Of a DNA stretch of 43,591 bases, positions 7,401 to 32,929 are shown piece after piece; within the stretch, counting starts at the first letter, position 1, and the number at the start of each line of letters is the position of its first letter. The position numbers were made by a program, and so were the translations under genes. Source of the stretch: Crocinitomicaceae bacterium (lineage in GTDB: Bacteria; Bacteroidota; Bacteroidia; Flavobacteriales_D; Parvicellaceae); assembly GCA_002723085.1 (NCBI GenBank), contig PBNK01000044.1, forward strand, positions 1 to 43,591, written 5' to 3'. Below the pieces are notes generated by a model that was not told the origin of the DNA, made no database searches, and saw nothing but the letters and a program-made list of their open reading frames with translations.

Positions 7401-8621
7401 TTATAACGCTGAGATTAATAAATCTAAATCTTTGTAAGGCAGATTAAATGTTTCTCCAAGAAATGAGGATGTAAGTGTGCCTTTATAAATGTATACTCCA
7501 TGTCTAAACCCTTTTTCGGTTTGAATTAGCTTATCACACCCTCCTCTTTCAGAGATTTCAATTAATAATGGAGAGAAAATATTACTCAATCCATAACTTG
7601 CTGTTCTTGAAACACTAGAAGCTATGTTGGGAACGCAATAGTGTGTAACATCAAACGCTTTAAAGGTTGGCTTTTCGTGTGTTGTGATTTTTGAAGTTTC
7701 AAAACACCCCCCCTTGTCAATGCTTACATCAACAATTACTGATCCAGATTTCATGGTTTTAACCATTTCTTCACTAACTACACATGGTGTTCTACCATGG
7801 GGAACACGCAAAGCACCTATGGCAACATCACATCTTCTTAGAGCTTTTATTAAAACTTTTGGTTGAATAACTGAAGTAAAAACTCTGTTTCCTATATCTC
7901 TTTGAAGTCTTCTTAATCTGTATATTGAGTTATCAAAAACTTTAACGGACACTCCAAGAGATAAAGCTGCACTAGCAGCAAATTGACCTACTGTTCCTGC
8001 CCCAATAATAACCATTTCTGGTGGAGTAATTCCAGCTACATTGCCTAACATTAATCCTTTTCCATTATTAGAACTGCTCATTAGTTCAGCTGCAATTAAT
8101 ACAGCAGTGGTTCCAGCAATTTCTCCCATAGAACGAATTATTGGAAAAGAACCATCTTCATCTTCAATATAATCCCAAGCAATTGCGGTTATTTTTTTTT
8201 CCATTAATTTTTTTAGCGCATTTTTTGGCTGAACAGTAAGTTGAAGAGCAGAAAATAAAATTTGTTTGTACTTCATCATTTCAATTTCTTGAACACTTGG
8301 TGGGGTAACCTTTAAAATGATGTCAGCTTTATATACTTCTTTTGTATCGTACGAGATTTCAGCTCCTGATTCACTGTAGTCATTGTCTGAAAAATTAGCT
8401 TTTTCACCTGCACCACTTTCTATTAGTACTTTATGGCCATTTGATACTAAAAAGCCAACTGATTCGGGAACTAAAGCTACGCGTTGTTCCTGAAATTCAG
8501 TTTCTTTAGGAATTCCAATATGTAGACTTTGTTTTTTTCTCCCAACTTCAAGCATTTCTTCTTGAGGAGATAATGCTGCTTCAATGGCCAATGATTTTAG
8601 TGCGTCTCCAGATGATATCAT
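7401..8621 (-). CDS. ald: Alanine dehydrogenase family protein
   Basis: NAD-dependent oxidative deamination of L-alanine to pyruvate and ammonia, or the reverse. After an N-terminal extension of about 35 residues the family start GIPKETEFQEQRVALVPESV appears, containing the substrate-binding Arg, with the catalytic-region Lys supplied in the usual place by VLIESGAGEKA. The Rossmann motif is VIIGAGTVGQFAA, and the C-terminal part has VSIDKGGCFETS. The 406 residues are longer than the roughly 370 of Bacillus Ald, mainly from the extension. Its ATG overlaps the tsaE TGA. Related transhydrogenase alpha subunits share the fold but usually carry a membrane tail, absent here. Confidence 0.9.
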   Translation of the reverse strand: MISSGDALKSLAIEAALSPQEEMLEVGRKKQSLHIGIPKETEFQEQRVALVPESVGFLVSNGHKVLIESGAGEKANFSDNDYSESGAEISYDTKEVYKADIILKVTPPSVQEIEMMKYKQILFSALQLTVQPKNALKKLMEKKITAIAWDYIEDEDGSFPIIRSMGEIAGTTAVLIAAELMSSSNNGKGLMLGNVAGITPPEMVIIGAGTVGQFAASAALSLGVSVKVFDNSIYRLRRLQRDIGNRVFTSVIQPKVLIKALRRCDVAIGALRVPHGRTPCVVSEEMVKTMKSGSVIVDVSIDKGGCFETSKITTHEKPTFKAFDVTHYCVPNIASSVSRTASYGLSNIFSPLLIEISERGGCDKLIQTEKGFRHGVYIYKGTLTSSFLGETFNLPYKDLDLLISAL

Positions 8622-21266: not shown

Positions 21267-22217
21267 TTAAAAAACTTGTGCAGCTATTTTTCTAACAGCT
21301 TCACCTTTTCCCATTGTGTAGAAATGTAATACTGGAGCCTCTTTTTTTATAAGTTCTCTAGCTTGTTTAATAGACCATTCAACTCCTACTTTTTGAACTT
21401 CTTCATTTGTTTTACATTTTTCAAGTTCATTTGACAATTCTTCAGGAAAATTAACATGAAAAAATTTCGGAATAAAACTTAAATGACGAAGAGTTGTAAG
21501 CGGTTTTAATCCTGGAATAATAGGAACATTTATACCAATTTCTCTACATTTTTTAACGAAATCAAAATATTTTTTATTATCATAAAACAATTGAGTAACT
21601 ATAAATTCAGCTCCTGCATCAACTTTCTTTTTTAAATTTTTCATGTCACTATTAAGGTTCATGGCTTCAAAATGTTTTTCTGGGTAGCCTGCAGCGCCAA
21701 TACAAAAATTTGATGGGCTATTTTTAGTTTCTTCATAAAGATATTGCCCATTATTCATGTCTTTAATTTGGTCAATTAAGTCAACCGCATACTGACTTCC
21801 TCCTTTAGTTGGAACAAATGCAGCTTCATTTTTCATAGGATCGCCTCTAAGAGCTAAAATATTATCAACGCCTAAAAATTTTAAATCAATTAAAGCACTT
21901 TCAGTTTCTTCCTTTGTAAATCCTCCACATATTATATGAGGGATGGCATCAACTTTATATCTATTCATTAAAGCAGCACAAATTCCTACAGTGCCTGGCC
22001 TTTTTTTAACAGATACTTTTTTAAGCAATCCATTGCCCATTTTTTTATATTCATATTCTTCTCTATGGTAAGTTACATTTATAAACGGGGGGTTAAAATC
22101 CATTAAAGGATCTATTCCTTCGCAGATATCTTCAATGCCTTTGCCTTTTAAAGGAGGAATAATCTCAAATGAGAATATAGTTTCTTTACTGTTTTCGATA
22201 TAGTCAATTACTTTCAT
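21267..22217 (-). CDS. metF: 5,10-methylenetetrahydrofolate reductase
   Basis: Flavoenzyme making 5-methyl-THF for methionine synthesis, 316 residues, a TIM barrel of the bacterial MetF type. Visible: FSFEIIPPLKG with the catalytic Glu, FINVTYHREEY, NILALRGDP with the conserved folate/FAD-binding Asp, FCIGAAGYPEKH, and AGAEFIVTQLFYDN. It is not beside metH or metE here. A box TTAATTTG (22228-22235, minus strand) 10 bases before the ATG may be its -7 element. Confidence 0.95.
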   Translation of the reverse strand: MKVIDYIENSKETIFSFEIIPPLKGKGIEDICEGIDPLMDFNPPFINVTYHREEYEYKKMGNGLLKKVSVKKRPGTVGICAALMNRYKVDAIPHIICGGFTKEETESALIDLKFLGVDNILALRGDPMKNEAAFVPTKGGSQYAVDLIDQIKDMNNGQYLYEETKNSPSNFCIGAAGYPEKHFEAMNLNSDMKNLKKKVDAGAEFIVTQLFYDNKKYFDFVKKCREIGINVPIIPGLKPLTTLRHLSFIPKFFHVNFPEELSNELEKCKTNEEVQKVGVEWSIKQARELIKKEAPVLHFYTMGKGEAVRKIAAQVF

Positions 22218-22343: not shown

Positions 22344-23006
22344 TTATCCATAAATTTTACTCCATATTTTACCTGCTGAGTAAGCACCAAGGCCACAGCC
22401 AACCACATAAACAAGAAGGCCTACAATTGCATCCCCAAAATCATTAGTTAATGAAGTTAAAAAATCAATAGCCAAAATAGCAGGGTTAGTACCAGAGCCA
22501 CCCGCCATTAAAGATCCAACTACAAGAGTTAAAATGATTCCTCTAAGTAAATGAATCCATTCATTTTTGTTATTGTCTATAGCCATATAAATCATAGATA
22601 AAATAGCCGTGCTAATACCTGTTAACAATACAACTCCTAAGTAACCAGCTGGAACACTCAAATTCCCTTCTGGAATATCTGTATCTGCAAAATCACTAGC
22701 CCCAAGTTGCAAAATATAAGCTAACACTAAACCTGCAGCAGCACCAATTACTTGATGAATCATAATTGTTTTGGCTTCTTCTTGCTCCATTTTACCCGCC
22801 ATCCAATAGGATGCAGTTACTGCAGGGTTAAAGTGACCACCAGAAGATTTGTAAAAAAGACAATAAGCTATGAAGAAAGCAACTGCTCCAACCCCCATTT
22901 CTGCTCCACGAAGAAGTGAGCCAAGACCCGACATTGTACTATACAATAAAAGAACAATTAAGCCAGTTCCGCATAATTCTGCTAAATATTTTTTTTCTAA
23001 TTTCAT
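22344..23006 (-). CDS. Aquaporin (MIP) family channel with altered second NPA motif
   Basis: Six-helix channel protein of 220 residues, normal for the MIP family. The first half-helix motif GGHFNPAVT (N60-A62) is intact, with the family start LAELCGTGLIVLL. The second motif is TNPAILAID: N174-P175-A176 are kept but the next residue is Ile177 where water and glycerol channels nearly always have Arg, and the usual phenylalanine-glycine-proline that follows is missing. This residue forms the selectivity filter, so solute or gas specificity may differ. Monocistronic: own promoter candidate at 23022-23069 and own terminator at 22288-22313. Confidence 0.88.
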   Translation of the reverse strand: MKLEKKYLAELCGTGLIVLLLYSTMSGLGSLLRGAEMGVGAVAFFIAYCLFYKSSGGHFNPAVTASYWMAGKMEQEEAKTIMIHQVIGAAAGLVLAYILQLGASDFADTDIPEGNLSVPAGYLGVVLLTGISTAILSMIYMAIDNNKNEWIHLLRGIILTLVVGSLMAGGSGTNPAILAIDFLTSLTNDFGDAIVGLLVYVVGCGLGAYSAGKIWSKIYG

Positions 23007-24945: not shown

Positions 24946-27900
24946 TCAGAAAAAGGCTCTTAATTGCACCCCACCGTTGTGAATTGCATTGTTTTCTTGA
25001 GATTTTCTTCCGTTATAGTTTAAAGATAATTGAAGATTTTTTGCTAGATTTCTTTGAAAATTTAACATCCAAGTAGTATTAATTCCATGTTGAAGAGCTT
25101 CAAGCATTTCAAAACCTATTGTACTATTGCTTTCGCCATTAAATTTTATATTAACAATATGAATGTTTCCTGAAAAAAGGCCTTTGTTTTTTTTGCTTTT
25201 TCTAAAGTCAATTCCAAAATCATGTAAGAATGCTTTTTCACCGCCATAGTCCAATGAATTCGTTTTTTCAGCATATCTACCTACTAAGCTTATTCTAAAT
25301 AGAGTGTTTGGTTGGAAAGAAAATTTACCATTAATGTCATCAATATTTAATTCATAATTTCTTGTTAAGGCATAAGAAGAGAAATTGCTTTTTAATTCTT
25401 GGTTCAGGTTTAGATTAACCATAATTTCTTTTGTAATGTTCCATCTTATTTTTAATTGATTACTATATTTTGTTTTGTAATCAGATCCATTCATAAGTAA
25501 TTGCTTATTTCCAAATATTTGAGTGGTGTATTCAAAGCTATATACAGGGCTTGATCGGTTAAAAAAGAAACTATTTCGAAAAGAATTTGATAGATTTTGA
25601 ATACTTGTGTCATTTGGAGAAGTAAGAGGATTAATAAGTTTTTCAAAATTGAATTCGTTTGTTTTTTTATTTGTGTTAAGAGCCGTTTGATTATAAAATT
25701 TTCTAAAAACTTTTCCCATGACTTTGTTTTTATCTAAAAATCTTTGGGGATCAATATTTAAATTTTGACTAAATTGATAGTTGTAAACTTTAATGTAATT
25801 AGAATTAGGAGTAAAAATTCTAATATATGTAGCTTGATCTGTATACTGAGCTATCTCAAATTCATTAATTTCTTTAATGTCATTTCCATTATAATCAATC
25901 CATGTATATATTCCTTGACCAGCAGACACTTCAAAATATATAAACTCTTTTTGTAGTTCTAGTCCTGAGCCAATTTCCATAAAAGAACTGCTATAAATAC
26001 CACCATTTAGAAATCTTAATTGGTAAGTTATTCTACTGGTTAAAGAATTTTCTCCTTGAATATTTGTTAAGTTAGTATCGGTTATTTCTAAATTTCTTAA
26101 TGCTAAGTTGTAGGTTAGTTTATTATTTTGATTTTGATGCAAATTTATTTTTAAACCTGGGCTTTTAGCTGAGGTAGCCTTCTTTAGTAAAGACTCGTTT
26201 TTAAACCAATCATATCTTTCTTGATAATAAATTTGAAAAATATTTTTCGAGGAATCCGCAGTTTCAATAAAAATTTTCCAATCATAAAATCTATAACTAG
26301 AATTGTTTAAAGTGTCATTATTGTAAAATTTATTTTTCTCATGTATATCTTTAAACCCAATATTGAACCCTCCAATTTTTTTATAAATATCGCTTTCGTG
26401 CCTTAAAAAATTAGAATTATTTTCTCCATTAGAGGTTAAATAACTCCCGTCAATTTTGGCATTTATGTTTTTTGTCCAATTAAGTTTAATGTTGTTTTTT
26501 AAACCATTATATGTTTCTTTTAAGTTAAAAGAATTAAAATCGTAGCTTAATGTTCCTTTTTCAGGATTACTTAACTTCCATTCTGCTTTTCCAATTACTT
26601 GATTTTTATTCAAATCCAATTGTTGAATATTCCAATTTCGTTCAAACTCAACCACCCTAAATCTTTCAATTCTATTAAAATTTCTGTTTACAGCTTCTAA
26701 ACTCAAGTTTTGATTAATAATCCATTTTTTGCCCAGATTATATTTTGAATTCAATTTTGTAAATCCTGAAAATCCTATATTGTCATTTTGATCAATATTT
26801 GAAAAAGTATTGACATCCATGTTTGAACTGGCAATTTCAAAGTTTATGGTGTTGTTTTTCCATTTTTTTTCTATTCCAGCATTTATCAATTGTCTTTTTT
26901 TGGGAGTTACTAGTTGCCTTATTGGTCCATGAGTACCGTTATGTATTATATTGCCTTGAATAGTATCTGGTGAAACCCATTCAAAAACTTTTCCAAAAGC
27001 ATTGTATTCTTTTATAATATAATCGCCACTTTCATCAAGTATTGGGCTAAAAACAATTCTGTAATTTGCTTTGTTTGGGTCAGTCGAAAAACGGTAAATT
27101 TCATAGCCAGATGAGTCTAATTTTTCATACATATTTACTCCGTCATAATAGGCCATGCTGTCAACTCCTGATGTAATGGCTTGATTTATTTGATCGCCTA
27201 TGTTCTCCATTACATCTCGGTCCAGTAAATTAAAGTCTTGTTGAAGAGGTTGGTTTTTACTGTCCTGCTCCCCATAGAAATTAAAGAAAATTTTTAAGTT
27301 TTCCTTAGAAAATATGGAGCTTGATTCTAATAAAGATCTAGCATAGTTTTTGTCACTGTATTGAAATTCAACTATTATTCTCTTATCCTTAGTGATAAGT
27401 TGGTTGGCTGTAAATATTAATTCTGATGTGTTATAGTCAATAGTGTAATCGTTATTTTGTCCTCTTTTGAGAAGTTTTCCATCAATGTAGACATTTTCAG
27501 TCCCACTTAAAATAATAATAAATGATTCGTTTTCACTTCCATTTAATCTATAAGGGCCTTGATTTCCTTCAATACCTTGAATTACATTTCTGGCAAATTT
27601 ACCTTTACTAATTGCTATACTGTTTTTAAATGAAATATTTGACCCGTTTTTATTTATCAGTGCGTTTTCAAGTTGAATTCCTTGCCCTCTTTTATTGTAG
27701 TTCAAAAAATATCCAAAAGGTTTTTTTAACCAAAAGTCTCCCATTATTAAATTCCAATTTTTGTGTAATACTTTTATAAAGACTTGGTCAAAGTCTTGCA
27801 ACTGTTGTGTGTTCCCTTGAGGTTGAATAGGGATATTTGCGTCTGTTACAGAAGCTAATATTTTTAAGTCTGGCGATAGATTTCCTGACAATTGAAGGTT

Positions 27901-28386
27901 TAGGTTAGAATTCAATGAAAAATTCTGATTGTTGCCCACCATTATTCCTCTTGATAAACTTCCAGTCTTATTTAGAGAGGTCTCATTAAAAATATCATTT
28001 TGTTTTATGTTTGATGTTATTTTTACGGGGATATAATTATCTTTTTTTTCATGATTCATCAATGATAAATCATGAAAGAAATAATTTTTATTAAAATTAA
28101 AACCAAGCAGTTGGTATTTAATTACTATGCTATCCGTTTGTTTTTCTTTGAAATAAATTTTTGAATTAATAGGGTTAATGTTGTAATACAACTTTGAAAC
28201 TGTCTCGCCATTTTTTTTTGTTAAACTAACGGTGGTTAAATTTATTGAAAGAGAGTCGATAGAAATAGAGTCTAAAAAAGGAGGAACAATTAAGCTTTTA
28301 TATCCATAGTTATTTTGTTGACCTATTAATATAAAAGGAATAAAAACTGAAATGCAGAAAAGTATATTCTTATAAAAGAACTGCAT
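24946..28386 (-). CDS. Very large outer-membrane beta-barrel protein (SprA-like conserved segment)
   Basis: From ATG 28386 the protein is 1146 residues with a clear signal peptide (FCISVFIPFILIG, then QQNN). Residues about 150-250 contain GSLSRGIMVGNNQ, then LNLQLSGNLSPDLKILASV, then QPQGNTQQLQDFDQVFIKV and LIMGDFWLKKP; this segment resembles one in the T9SS translocon protein SprA, which is about twice as long. The remainder is dense alternating beta strand, and the chain ends in RAFF, the terminal Phe typical of outer-membrane barrels. No T9SS sorting domain. I take it as a Bacteroidota outer-membrane protein of unknown role. An ATG 11 codons upstream (28419) is the alternative start. Confidence 0.72.
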   Translation of the reverse strand: MQFFYKNILFCISVFIPFILIGQQNNYGYKSLIVPPFLDSISIDSLSINLTTVSLTKKNGETVSKLYYNINPINSKIYFKEKQTDSIVIKYQLLGFNFNKNYFFHDLSLMNHEKKDNYIPVKITSNIKQNDIFNETSLNKTGSLSRGIMVGNNQNFSLNSNLNLQLSGNLSPDLKILASVTDANIPIQPQGNTQQLQDFDQVFIKVLHKNWNLIMGDFWLKKPFGYFLNYNKRGQGIQLENALINKNGSNISFKNSIAISKGKFARNVIQGIEGNQGPYRLNGSENESFIIILSGTENVYIDGKLLKRGQNNDYTIDYNTSELIFTANQLITKDKRIIVEFQYSDKNYARSLLESSSIFSKENLKIFFNFYGEQDSKNQPLQQDFNLLDRDVMENIGDQINQAITSGVDSMAYYDGVNMYEKLDSSGYEIYRFSTDPNKANYRIVFSPILDESGDYIIKEYNAFGKVFEWVSPDTIQGNIIHNGTHGPIRQLVTPKKRQLINAGIEKKWKNNTINFEIASSNMDVNTFSNIDQNDNIGFSGFTKLNSKYNLGKKWIINQNLSLEAVNRNFNRIERFRVVEFERNWNIQQLDLNKNQVIGKAEWKLSNPEKGTLSYDFNSFNLKETYNGLKNNIKLNWTKNINAKIDGSYLTSNGENNSNFLRHESDIYKKIGGFNIGFKDIHEKNKFYNNDTLNNSSYRFYDWKIFIETADSSKNIFQIYYQERYDWFKNESLLKKATSAKSPGLKINLHQNQNNKLTYNLALRNLEITDTNLTNIQGENSLTSRITYQLRFLNGGIYSSSFMEIGSGLELQKEFIYFEVSAGQGIYTWIDYNGNDIKEINEFEIAQYTDQATYIRIFTPNSNYIKVYNYQFSQNLNIDPQRFLDKNKVMGKVFRKFYNQTALNTNKKTNEFNFEKLINPLTSPNDTSIQNLSNSFRNSFFFNRSSPVYSFEYTTQIFGNKQLLMNGSDYKTKYSNQLKIRWNITKEIMVNLNLNQELKSNFSSYALTRNYELNIDDINGKFSFQPNTLFRISLVGRYAEKTNSLDYGGEKAFLHDFGIDFRKSKKNKGLFSGNIHIVNIKFNGESNSTIGFEMLEALQHGINTTWMLNFQRNLAKNLQLSLNYNGRKSQENNAIHNGGVQLRAFF

Positions 28387-28473
28387 GATTTTTATATTTT
28401 TTATTTGGCCAACGAACATTAATGTTATTTGTTTTATTTTAATTATTAAACTCCATATATATATATCAAGGAT

Positions 28474-28515: not shown

Positions 28516-30312
28516 ATGAAATTCTTAAAATACATTTATTTATTGTCTTTTAGCATTATACTATCTTGTAATGAATCAAATCCAGAGGATGTAAACAGTT
28601 CTTTCGGTGAAATAAGAGAAGCGAAGGGGTATTATCAAGAAGGAGATAAAAAAATAAAACTTTATAGAGGAGGAGTTTTTAGACTAAATGAGTCAGCATC
28701 TTTTAAAAATTTATTTCCACTCTCAATTAATCATGCGATTTCTAGTAGAATTGCTCTGCAAATTTATGAGGGCTTAGTTAAATTAAATCAAAGAACATTA
28801 AAGGTTGAACCTCTTTTAGCTAAATCTATCGATATGAATGATGAAGGGACAGTCTATACTTTTAAGTTAAGAGACAATGTTTTTTTTCATGACGACCCAT
28901 GTTTTAATAACAATACAGGAAGAAAATTGACTGCGAATGATTTTAAATTTTGTTTTGATTTAATTTGTTCAAATGTTGAAGGTAATAGATCTTCTAATAT
29001 TTTCATTGATCGGATTTTAGGTGCTAGAGAACATTTTGATTTAACATCTGAAGGGGTATTTCCTGAATCTGGTGTTTCTGGAATCGAGGTAGTTGATGAC
29101 TACACTCTTAAAATCACTTTAATTCAACCGTGTTCCTTCTTTTTGAAAACACTTGCACATGCTCAATGTGGTGTTTTTCCAGAAGAAGCTTACAAGAAAT
29201 ATGGCATGGAAATGCGATCTAAAACAACAGGGACTGGGCCATTTATTTTAAAGGATTTAATTGAAGGTAATGAACTAAGGCTTGTTAGAAATGAAAAATA
29301 TTGGGATATAGATGAAAATGGGAATCAACTGCCATACCTTGATGTTATTAAAATGACTTTTAATGCAGATAAAAAAATTGAACTTACAAATTTCAAAAAG
29401 TCAAATTTAGATATGGTATACCAATTGCCGGTAGATCAGTTAAAAGAAGTTTTAGTTAGCTTAGATTCTGCTAAAAACGGGGGTAATCCAGAATTTATCT
29501 ATCAAAGTAAGCCCAATGGACTCTCTTCAGTATTCTATTGTTTTAATATGGAGAAGCCTATTTTTCAAGATGTTAGGATAAGAAAAGCTTTTAACCTAGC
29601 AATCGATAGAAGGAGAATTACAAAATACAGTTTACAAGGTGAAACTTCTGAAGCATTGGGCGGATTGGTTCCTAGCTTTGGTAATTATGATAATAGTAAT
29701 GTTCAGGGTTTTGATTATGACCCCAAAAAAGCACAAGAGTTATTGGCTGAAGCAGGTTATATTGGTGGTGAAGGATTCCCAGAGTTGTCATTAGAAATTA
29801 GTGAGAATAATTTTTTAAATCCAATTGTTGCTGAATCAATACAAAGCATGCTGAAAGAGAACTTATGAATTAAAATAAAGATTGATTATACCTCATTAAC
29901 TGTTTTAATTGAAAGATTTAGTAGTGGAGCTTCAGACTTTTGGGGTACAATATGGCTTGCAGATTATCCAGATCCTCAAAATTTTTTACAGCTCTATGAA
30001 AGCAGTACAATTCCTTCCAAAGAAGTTAATGAAACTGGTGAAACAATTTTAAAGCCATCATATACAAACCCTTCGAGGTATAAAAATAAAGACTTTGATT
30101 ATTTTTATAATAAAGCTGTTAGCGCCACTTCAGATTCTGTTGCATTAAAAAATTATTATAAAGCTGATAGCGTTTTAGTTTCAGATGCAGCATTTATTCC
30201 TATTTATTATGAACATTATATTCGTTTATTACAAAATAATGTTCAAGGATTTCCTCAAAACTCAATGGAATATAGAGATTTTACCCGGGTTTTCTTGTCG
30301 CCAAAGAAATAA
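28516..30312 (+). pseudogene. ABC transporter peptide-binding lipoprotein (SBP family 5) with one in-frame TGA
   Basis: Dpp/Opp-type substrate-binding lipoprotein, 598 codons plus stop. The signal has lipobox ILSC. Family features: ALQIYEGLVKLN, then YTFKLRDNVFFHDDP, then TGPFILKD, KYWDIDENGNQLPYLD and VRIRKAFNLAIDR. Codon 451 is TGA (29866-29868). The same frame then stays open for 147 codons to TAA at 30312 and continues the family (DFWGTIWLADYPDPQNFLQLY, FIPIYYEHYIRL). No frame shift is involved and no ATG begins the second part until codon 129 of it. So it is a fresh nonsense mutation, a readthrough site or a sequencing error; TGA is a normal stop in thyA, tsaE, rbfA and others here. Confidence 0.85.
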
Positions 30313-32251: not shown

Positions 32252-32929
32252 ATGAAATTGTTTTATAAAGTTATGTGTTCTGTGCTAGTACTTTTAGCTT
32301 TTTCATGTAGTATGTCAAAATTGACTAATTATGGAAAACCACTAAGTTTTTTAAGTAAGGAAAGAATACCAAGAAAAAAAGCAATACAATTAAATGAAAT
32401 TTTATTAGCAAATACTGATATCAAACAAAATGTTTTGTATAAGAGTGAAAAAAATAAATTAGAGTTAAATGTTATGAATAATTCTTCTTTAACTGAAAAA
32501 ATTGATCAACCCTTAAGTTTATCTTTAGAAATAAGAAAAACAGCTAGCGATTTAAAGAAAAAAAATAATTTTGAAAAGAATAATGAGATTATCATTCCCA
32601 TTCTTGAGGAAAAAATTCAAAATGTAATTAAGAATAATAATTTTTCAAATAAAACAAACACTTTGGCTATAAATAAATCATCTTATGATAGGTTGTTAAA
32701 TGATGAAATTAGTGATTTGGTTTTGTTGTTAATTTGTTTACTTTTTCCTCCAGTTGCTGTATGGTGGCGTTATGATTTTAGAGAACAATTTTGGATTGAC
32801 TTAGCTTTATATGCTCCAATGGTTTTTTTTAGTAGTGCTACTTTTGCTATACTGCCTGTTTTGTATGCAATATATGTTTGTTTTTTAAAGAAAAGAGGAA
32901 ATACGGGTGACGTTAGATCTAGTTGGTAG
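32252..32929 (+). CDS. Lipoprotein with C-terminal YqaE/Pmp3-like membrane domain
   Basis: 225 residues. The N-terminus is a lipoprotein signal (LLAFSC, Cys at about 19). A polar, lysine- and asparagine-rich linker of about 130 residues follows, then two hydrophobic helices: LLICLLFPPVAVWWRYDF, FWIDLALYAPMVFF and LPVLYAIYVCFL. These keep the PP-x-A-V and FWI-x-L marks and the A-x-Y-V ending of the small YqaE/Pmp3 (UPF0057) proteins, which are normally only about 55 residues. Pmp3 in yeast affects membrane potential; the role in bacteria is unclear. A TATTTTTA box at 32224-32231, 20 bases before the ATG, is a near -7 match. Confidence 0.72.
   Translation: MKLFYKVMCSVLVLLAFSCSMSKLTNYGKPLSFLSKERIPRKKAIQLNEILLANTDIKQNVLYKSEKNKLELNVMNNSSLTEKIDQPLSLSLEIRKTASDLKKKNNFEKNNEIIIPILEEKIQNVIKNNNFSNKTNTLAINKSSYDRLLNDEISDLVLLLICLLFPPVAVWWRYDFREQFWIDLALYAPMVFFSSATFAILPVLYAIYVCFLKKRGNTGDVRSSW

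Follow-up and report, generated by a model that had tools for sequence, protein, structure and literature searches.

The question raised by this locus is whether a TGA codon lying inside a gene for a peptide-binding lipoprotein is read as an amino acid or simply ends the protein. The window, the whole stretch of DNA that was analyzed (43,591 nucleotides), belongs, as contig C44, to the 95% complete draft genome (2.43 Mb in 46 contigs) of an uncultured Flavobacteriales-type bacterium. Translation from the ATG at 28516 gives 450 residues, then the TGA (29866-29868), and then a further 147 residues in the same frame up to a TAA at 30310-30312. The open reading frame (ORF) list ends the gene with the TGA at 29868; the read-through frame (28516-30312) comprises 598 residues of a family-5 solute-binding lipoprotein (SBP) of the oligopeptide/dipeptide type. 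The parts of the gene, with the evidence for each, are:

28516..29868, + strand: upstream part of the interrupted gene, residues 1-450, ended by TGA (ORF list, translation, Pfam PF00496, OppA resemblance in NCBIfam and PDB, lipobox from sequence)
29866..29868, + strand: premature in-frame TGA, codon 451 (translation, alignments of relatives)
29869..30312, + strand: 147 codons and a TAA, the conserved C-terminal part, cut off by the TGA and lacking a usable start (translation, alignments)

The read-through protein gives one unbroken match to PF00496 (SBP_bac_5) across the TGA, from residue 96 to residue 498 (E 3.1e-72), and its score of 244 bits, compared to a cut-off of 32.4, places it in family 5. 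It resembles OppA-type proteins in NCBIfam and PDB, at scores below every equivalog cut-off, and its N-terminus, MKFLKYIYLLSFSIILSC, reads as a lipoprotein signal with a lipobox. An open stretch of 147 codons at the composition of this gene turned up in 1 of 20,000 simulations under a first-order Markov model. The first 132 codons 3' of the TGA contain no ATG, GTG or TTG; an in-frame ATG first appears at 30265, 44 bases ahead of the stop, and the sole in-frame GTG/TTG lies at 30295. Thus, the C-terminal part cannot initiate alone at any of these codons, and its restart as a separate protein was ruled out. The initial annotation had described a single TGA at codon 451 of an otherwise intact frame, with no ATG from which the C-terminal part could start, and both points are borne out, the former by translation and by homology through the end of the frame.

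A homologue of the SBP gene is present in 48 of 60 related genomes. Homology of the read-through protein spans its full length, and the orthologues, found in about 28 related genomes, align through residues 595-598. At the site of codon 451, the 28 aligned orthologue-like frames carry Gly (24) or Asn (4), and none carries a stop. The 24 Gly codons are GGT (11), GGG (6), GGA (4) and GGC (3), in agreement with the earlier suggestion that Gly commonly follows E-N-L in relatives. The orthologue from the same genus (genome G001), which is 77% identical overall, has GGG at the site. A search among genome contigs for further strains of the window's own species yielded the sister species alone. No indel was found around the TGA in comparison with this orthologue, which excludes a frameshift as the origin of the interruption and agrees with the initial annotation, in which no indel was involved. 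The same-genus contig preserves the gene order lepA, 1157-aa protein, SBP, OmpA-family protein, and the 18 other window genes with counterparts there align without indel breaks. Other relatives have full-length SBP frames of about 530-640 aa, save for disrupted or contig-edge fragments. One homologue (L026, G015:C305) contains a TAA and a frameshift, with two overlapping frames, and is either an independent disruption or an assembly error; a paralogue of the SBP gene in G017 is interrupted by TAG. Since a stop is found at this position in none of the aligned relatives, it is either derived in the lineage of the window or an error. The initial annotation had regarded a sense codon in sister genomes as a sign of misassembly. 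All relatives' orthologues indeed carry a sense codon, but this fits a derived nonsense allele equally well as an assembly error.

The age of the lesion was estimated from the selection acting on the two parts. With the same-genus orthologue as reference, residues 1-450 have a pN/pS of 0.194 and residues 452-598 one of 0.189, indicating equal purifying selection on both, and the amino acid identities are also similar (77% for the N-terminal part and 79% for the C-terminal part). The SBP gene was therefore functional until recently. Synonymous sites between the two sequences are near saturation, so the equal pN/pS shows only that the lesion is young relative to the species split. Changes private to one lineage, window versus G001, number 14 versus 20 in the N-terminal part and 7 versus 3 in the C-terminal part (Fisher p 0.16); the C-terminal excess would fit relaxed selection but is not significant, and is a hint at most. 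No decay other than the TGA is visible in the gene, which limits what can be said about the age and fixation of the lesion. Judged from these comparisons, the C-terminal part is constrained to the same degree as the N-terminal part and lacks its own start, as expected of a young lesion and not of an old pseudogene.

A UGA in frame with conserved coding sequence behind it is also a feature of UGA recoding, whether by selenocysteine, by a tRNA-Trp with a UCA anticodon, or by a tRNA-Trp(CCA) with a 4-bp anticodon stem, which can read UGA in bacteria (PMC13092985). In contrast to those systems, the recoding apparatus was not found here, RF2 is kept, and the relatives have Gly at the site instead of Cys or Trp. 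The genome has prfB, the RF2 gene, which keeps the canonical autoregulatory +1 frameshift site, AGGGGGTACCTTTGAC (CTTTGAC); this site almost matches that of E. coli. Frameshift sites of this kind are common in Bacteroidia, occurring in 72% of 726 genomes (PMC8710568). For the autoregulation to work, UGA must be a stop that RF2 reads. The best match to tRNA-Sec (RF01852) reached 39.6 bits, below the cut-off of 47, and the top matches are ordinary tRNAs, for example Ser, Tyr and Leu. ARAGORN, run on the tRNA loci of the 95% complete genome, identified no tRNA with a UCA anticodon. The tRNA-Trp(CCA) has a full 5-bp anticodon stem, CUGGU/ACCAG. Folding 3' of the TGA is no stronger than that of shuffled sequences (z +0.84), and no structured RNA or SECIS-like hairpin was detected there. 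Selenocysteine was ruled out by the lack of a tRNA-Sec over the cut-off, the missing hairpin, and the Gly or Asn found in relatives. A UGA-to-Trp code was ruled out by RF2 with its frameshift site, the common use of TGA as a stop, the normal tRNA-Trp and the lack of a UCA tRNA. Programmed readthrough would leave a conserved stop, which none of the relatives carries. Recoding of TGA in the SBP gene is thus unsupported.

Stop usage and interrupted frames were scanned in the window together with a 400-kb sample of the same genome (443.6 kb in all). TGA terminates 30 of the 272 long coding frames in this sample, which upholds the earlier statement that it ends genes normally elsewhere. Of the in-frame ORF pairs listed by the scan, those lacking an early ATG were examined with Pfam, and a second interrupted frame was found:

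C13:86892-90776: second interrupted frame, single-stop TAA (scan, Pfam)

The in-frame TAA (C13:88281-88283; about 8281-8283 of locus L084) is codon 464 of a 1295-codon DUF7948/PKD/CHU_C protein (type IX secretion). Its closest relatives are uninterrupted, with frames of 1287-1326 aa, and of five that were inspected, two have Gln at the site. Two other in-frame pairs proved to be separate neighbors, namely a dUTPase followed by a TPR protein and an M20 peptidase followed by an LEA_2 protein. The two interruptions use different stops, TGA and TAA, a pattern that nonsense mutations or errors would produce but UGA recoding would not.

What remains to be weighed is what the TGA represents. It may be a sequence artefact that conceals an intact gene in the organism, arising from an error in base calling or in the consensus, or from a minor strain whose allele was merged into the draft. 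The lesion is a single base in a draft of 46 contigs, the rest of the gene looks as if it is under selection, a second single-base nonsense codon lies within the 443.6 kb, and interrupted homologues occur occasionally in relatives, as in G015 and G017. However, the clean alignment of the 18 other window genes to the same-genus contig indicates that error density is not visibly high, and, by rough reasoning, two substitution-type nonsense errors in 444 kb would call for a high error rate. A search of the literature for nonsense artefacts in MAGs found nothing. We regard an artefact as unlikely, though with an appreciable share of the probability. The TGA might instead be decoded as an amino acid at a frequency sufficient to yield full-length lipoprotein. 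TGA is the leakiest stop, and the C-terminal part remains in frame with full conservation; against this stand the lack of a stop at the site in any relative, RF2 with its autoregulatory site, the tRNA complement described above, the unstructured downstream RNA, the ordinary use of TGA as a stop, and the TAA in the second interrupted gene. Functional readthrough or recoding is therefore very improbable, and slightly less probable still is a lineage- and locus-specific UGA readthrough that would yield truncated and full-length lipoprotein without a dedicated tRNA or RNA element.

The 450-residue lipoprotein could also be functional itself, as a shortened binding protein or a decoy, given that it keeps the lipobox and most of the SBP_bac_5 domain. 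This has very little probability in our assessment: the lost part belongs to a conserved fold, the frames of other relatives are full-length apart from the fragments already mentioned, and the stranded C-terminal part shows no decay, which makes the truncation too recent for a judgement. Of the three explanations offered by the initial annotation, a recent nonsense mutation is thus favored, a read error retains a minor share, and stop readthrough lacks positive support. We propose that the most probable event is a recent single-base nonsense mutation of an ancestral Gly codon to TGA, truncating and probably inactivating one of two family-5 SBP lipoprotein genes. In either of the two leading cases, the TGA is an ordinary gene-breaking mutation or possibly a sequence error, and not a new reading of the genetic code.

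Under the nonsense mutation, ribosomes would stop at the TGA via RF2 and release a 450-residue lipoprotein lacking the last quarter of the protein. The missing portion covers the C-terminal segment together with the final stretch of both PF00496 and the second lobe. In OppA-type proteins, the C-terminal segment returns to the first lobe. The loss of these elements suggests that the product is probably non-functional, and it would probably neither fold nor bind peptide. The SBP gene would then be a young pseudogene or a segregating loss-of-function allele. It shares with OppA/DppA-type family-5 SBPs (PF00496; cluster C) the lipobox, the domain order and, when read through the TGA, full-length homology; it differs from them in the stop at codon 451 and in its neighbors, among which Opp permease or ATPase genes were not noted. 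With nonsense-interrupted bacterial genes that are young pseudogenes or segregating alleles it shares the one-codon lesion, intact orthologues and a conserved downstream frame; no difference was seen, additional decay being not yet present.

An intact SBP paralogue is located on contig C2 (588 aa, 34% identity), and two separate permease genes are found on other contigs; no Opp permease or ATPase genes were noted beside the interrupted gene. Because the paralogue and both permease genes are kept, peptide uptake need not be lost. If reads confirm the TGA, a binding-protein gene is being lost while the paralogue and the permease genes remain. For annotation, the SBP gene should be recorded as interrupted, and its TGA is no evidence of recoding in this lineage.

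Comparison with the same-genus contig revealed further features of the window. A 220-aa ORF at 22344-23006 (- strand), lying between 21267-22217 and lepA, is missing from the syntenic contig, where the flanking genes sit only about 150 bp apart. The 1157-aa protein encoded divergently from the SBP gene (24946-28419, - strand) is 78% identical in the sister species and has no match in Pfam or NCBIfam. The gene at 32252-32929 (+ strand) is fast-evolving, with 53% identity to its syntenic counterpart compared to mostly 76-90% for its neighbors.
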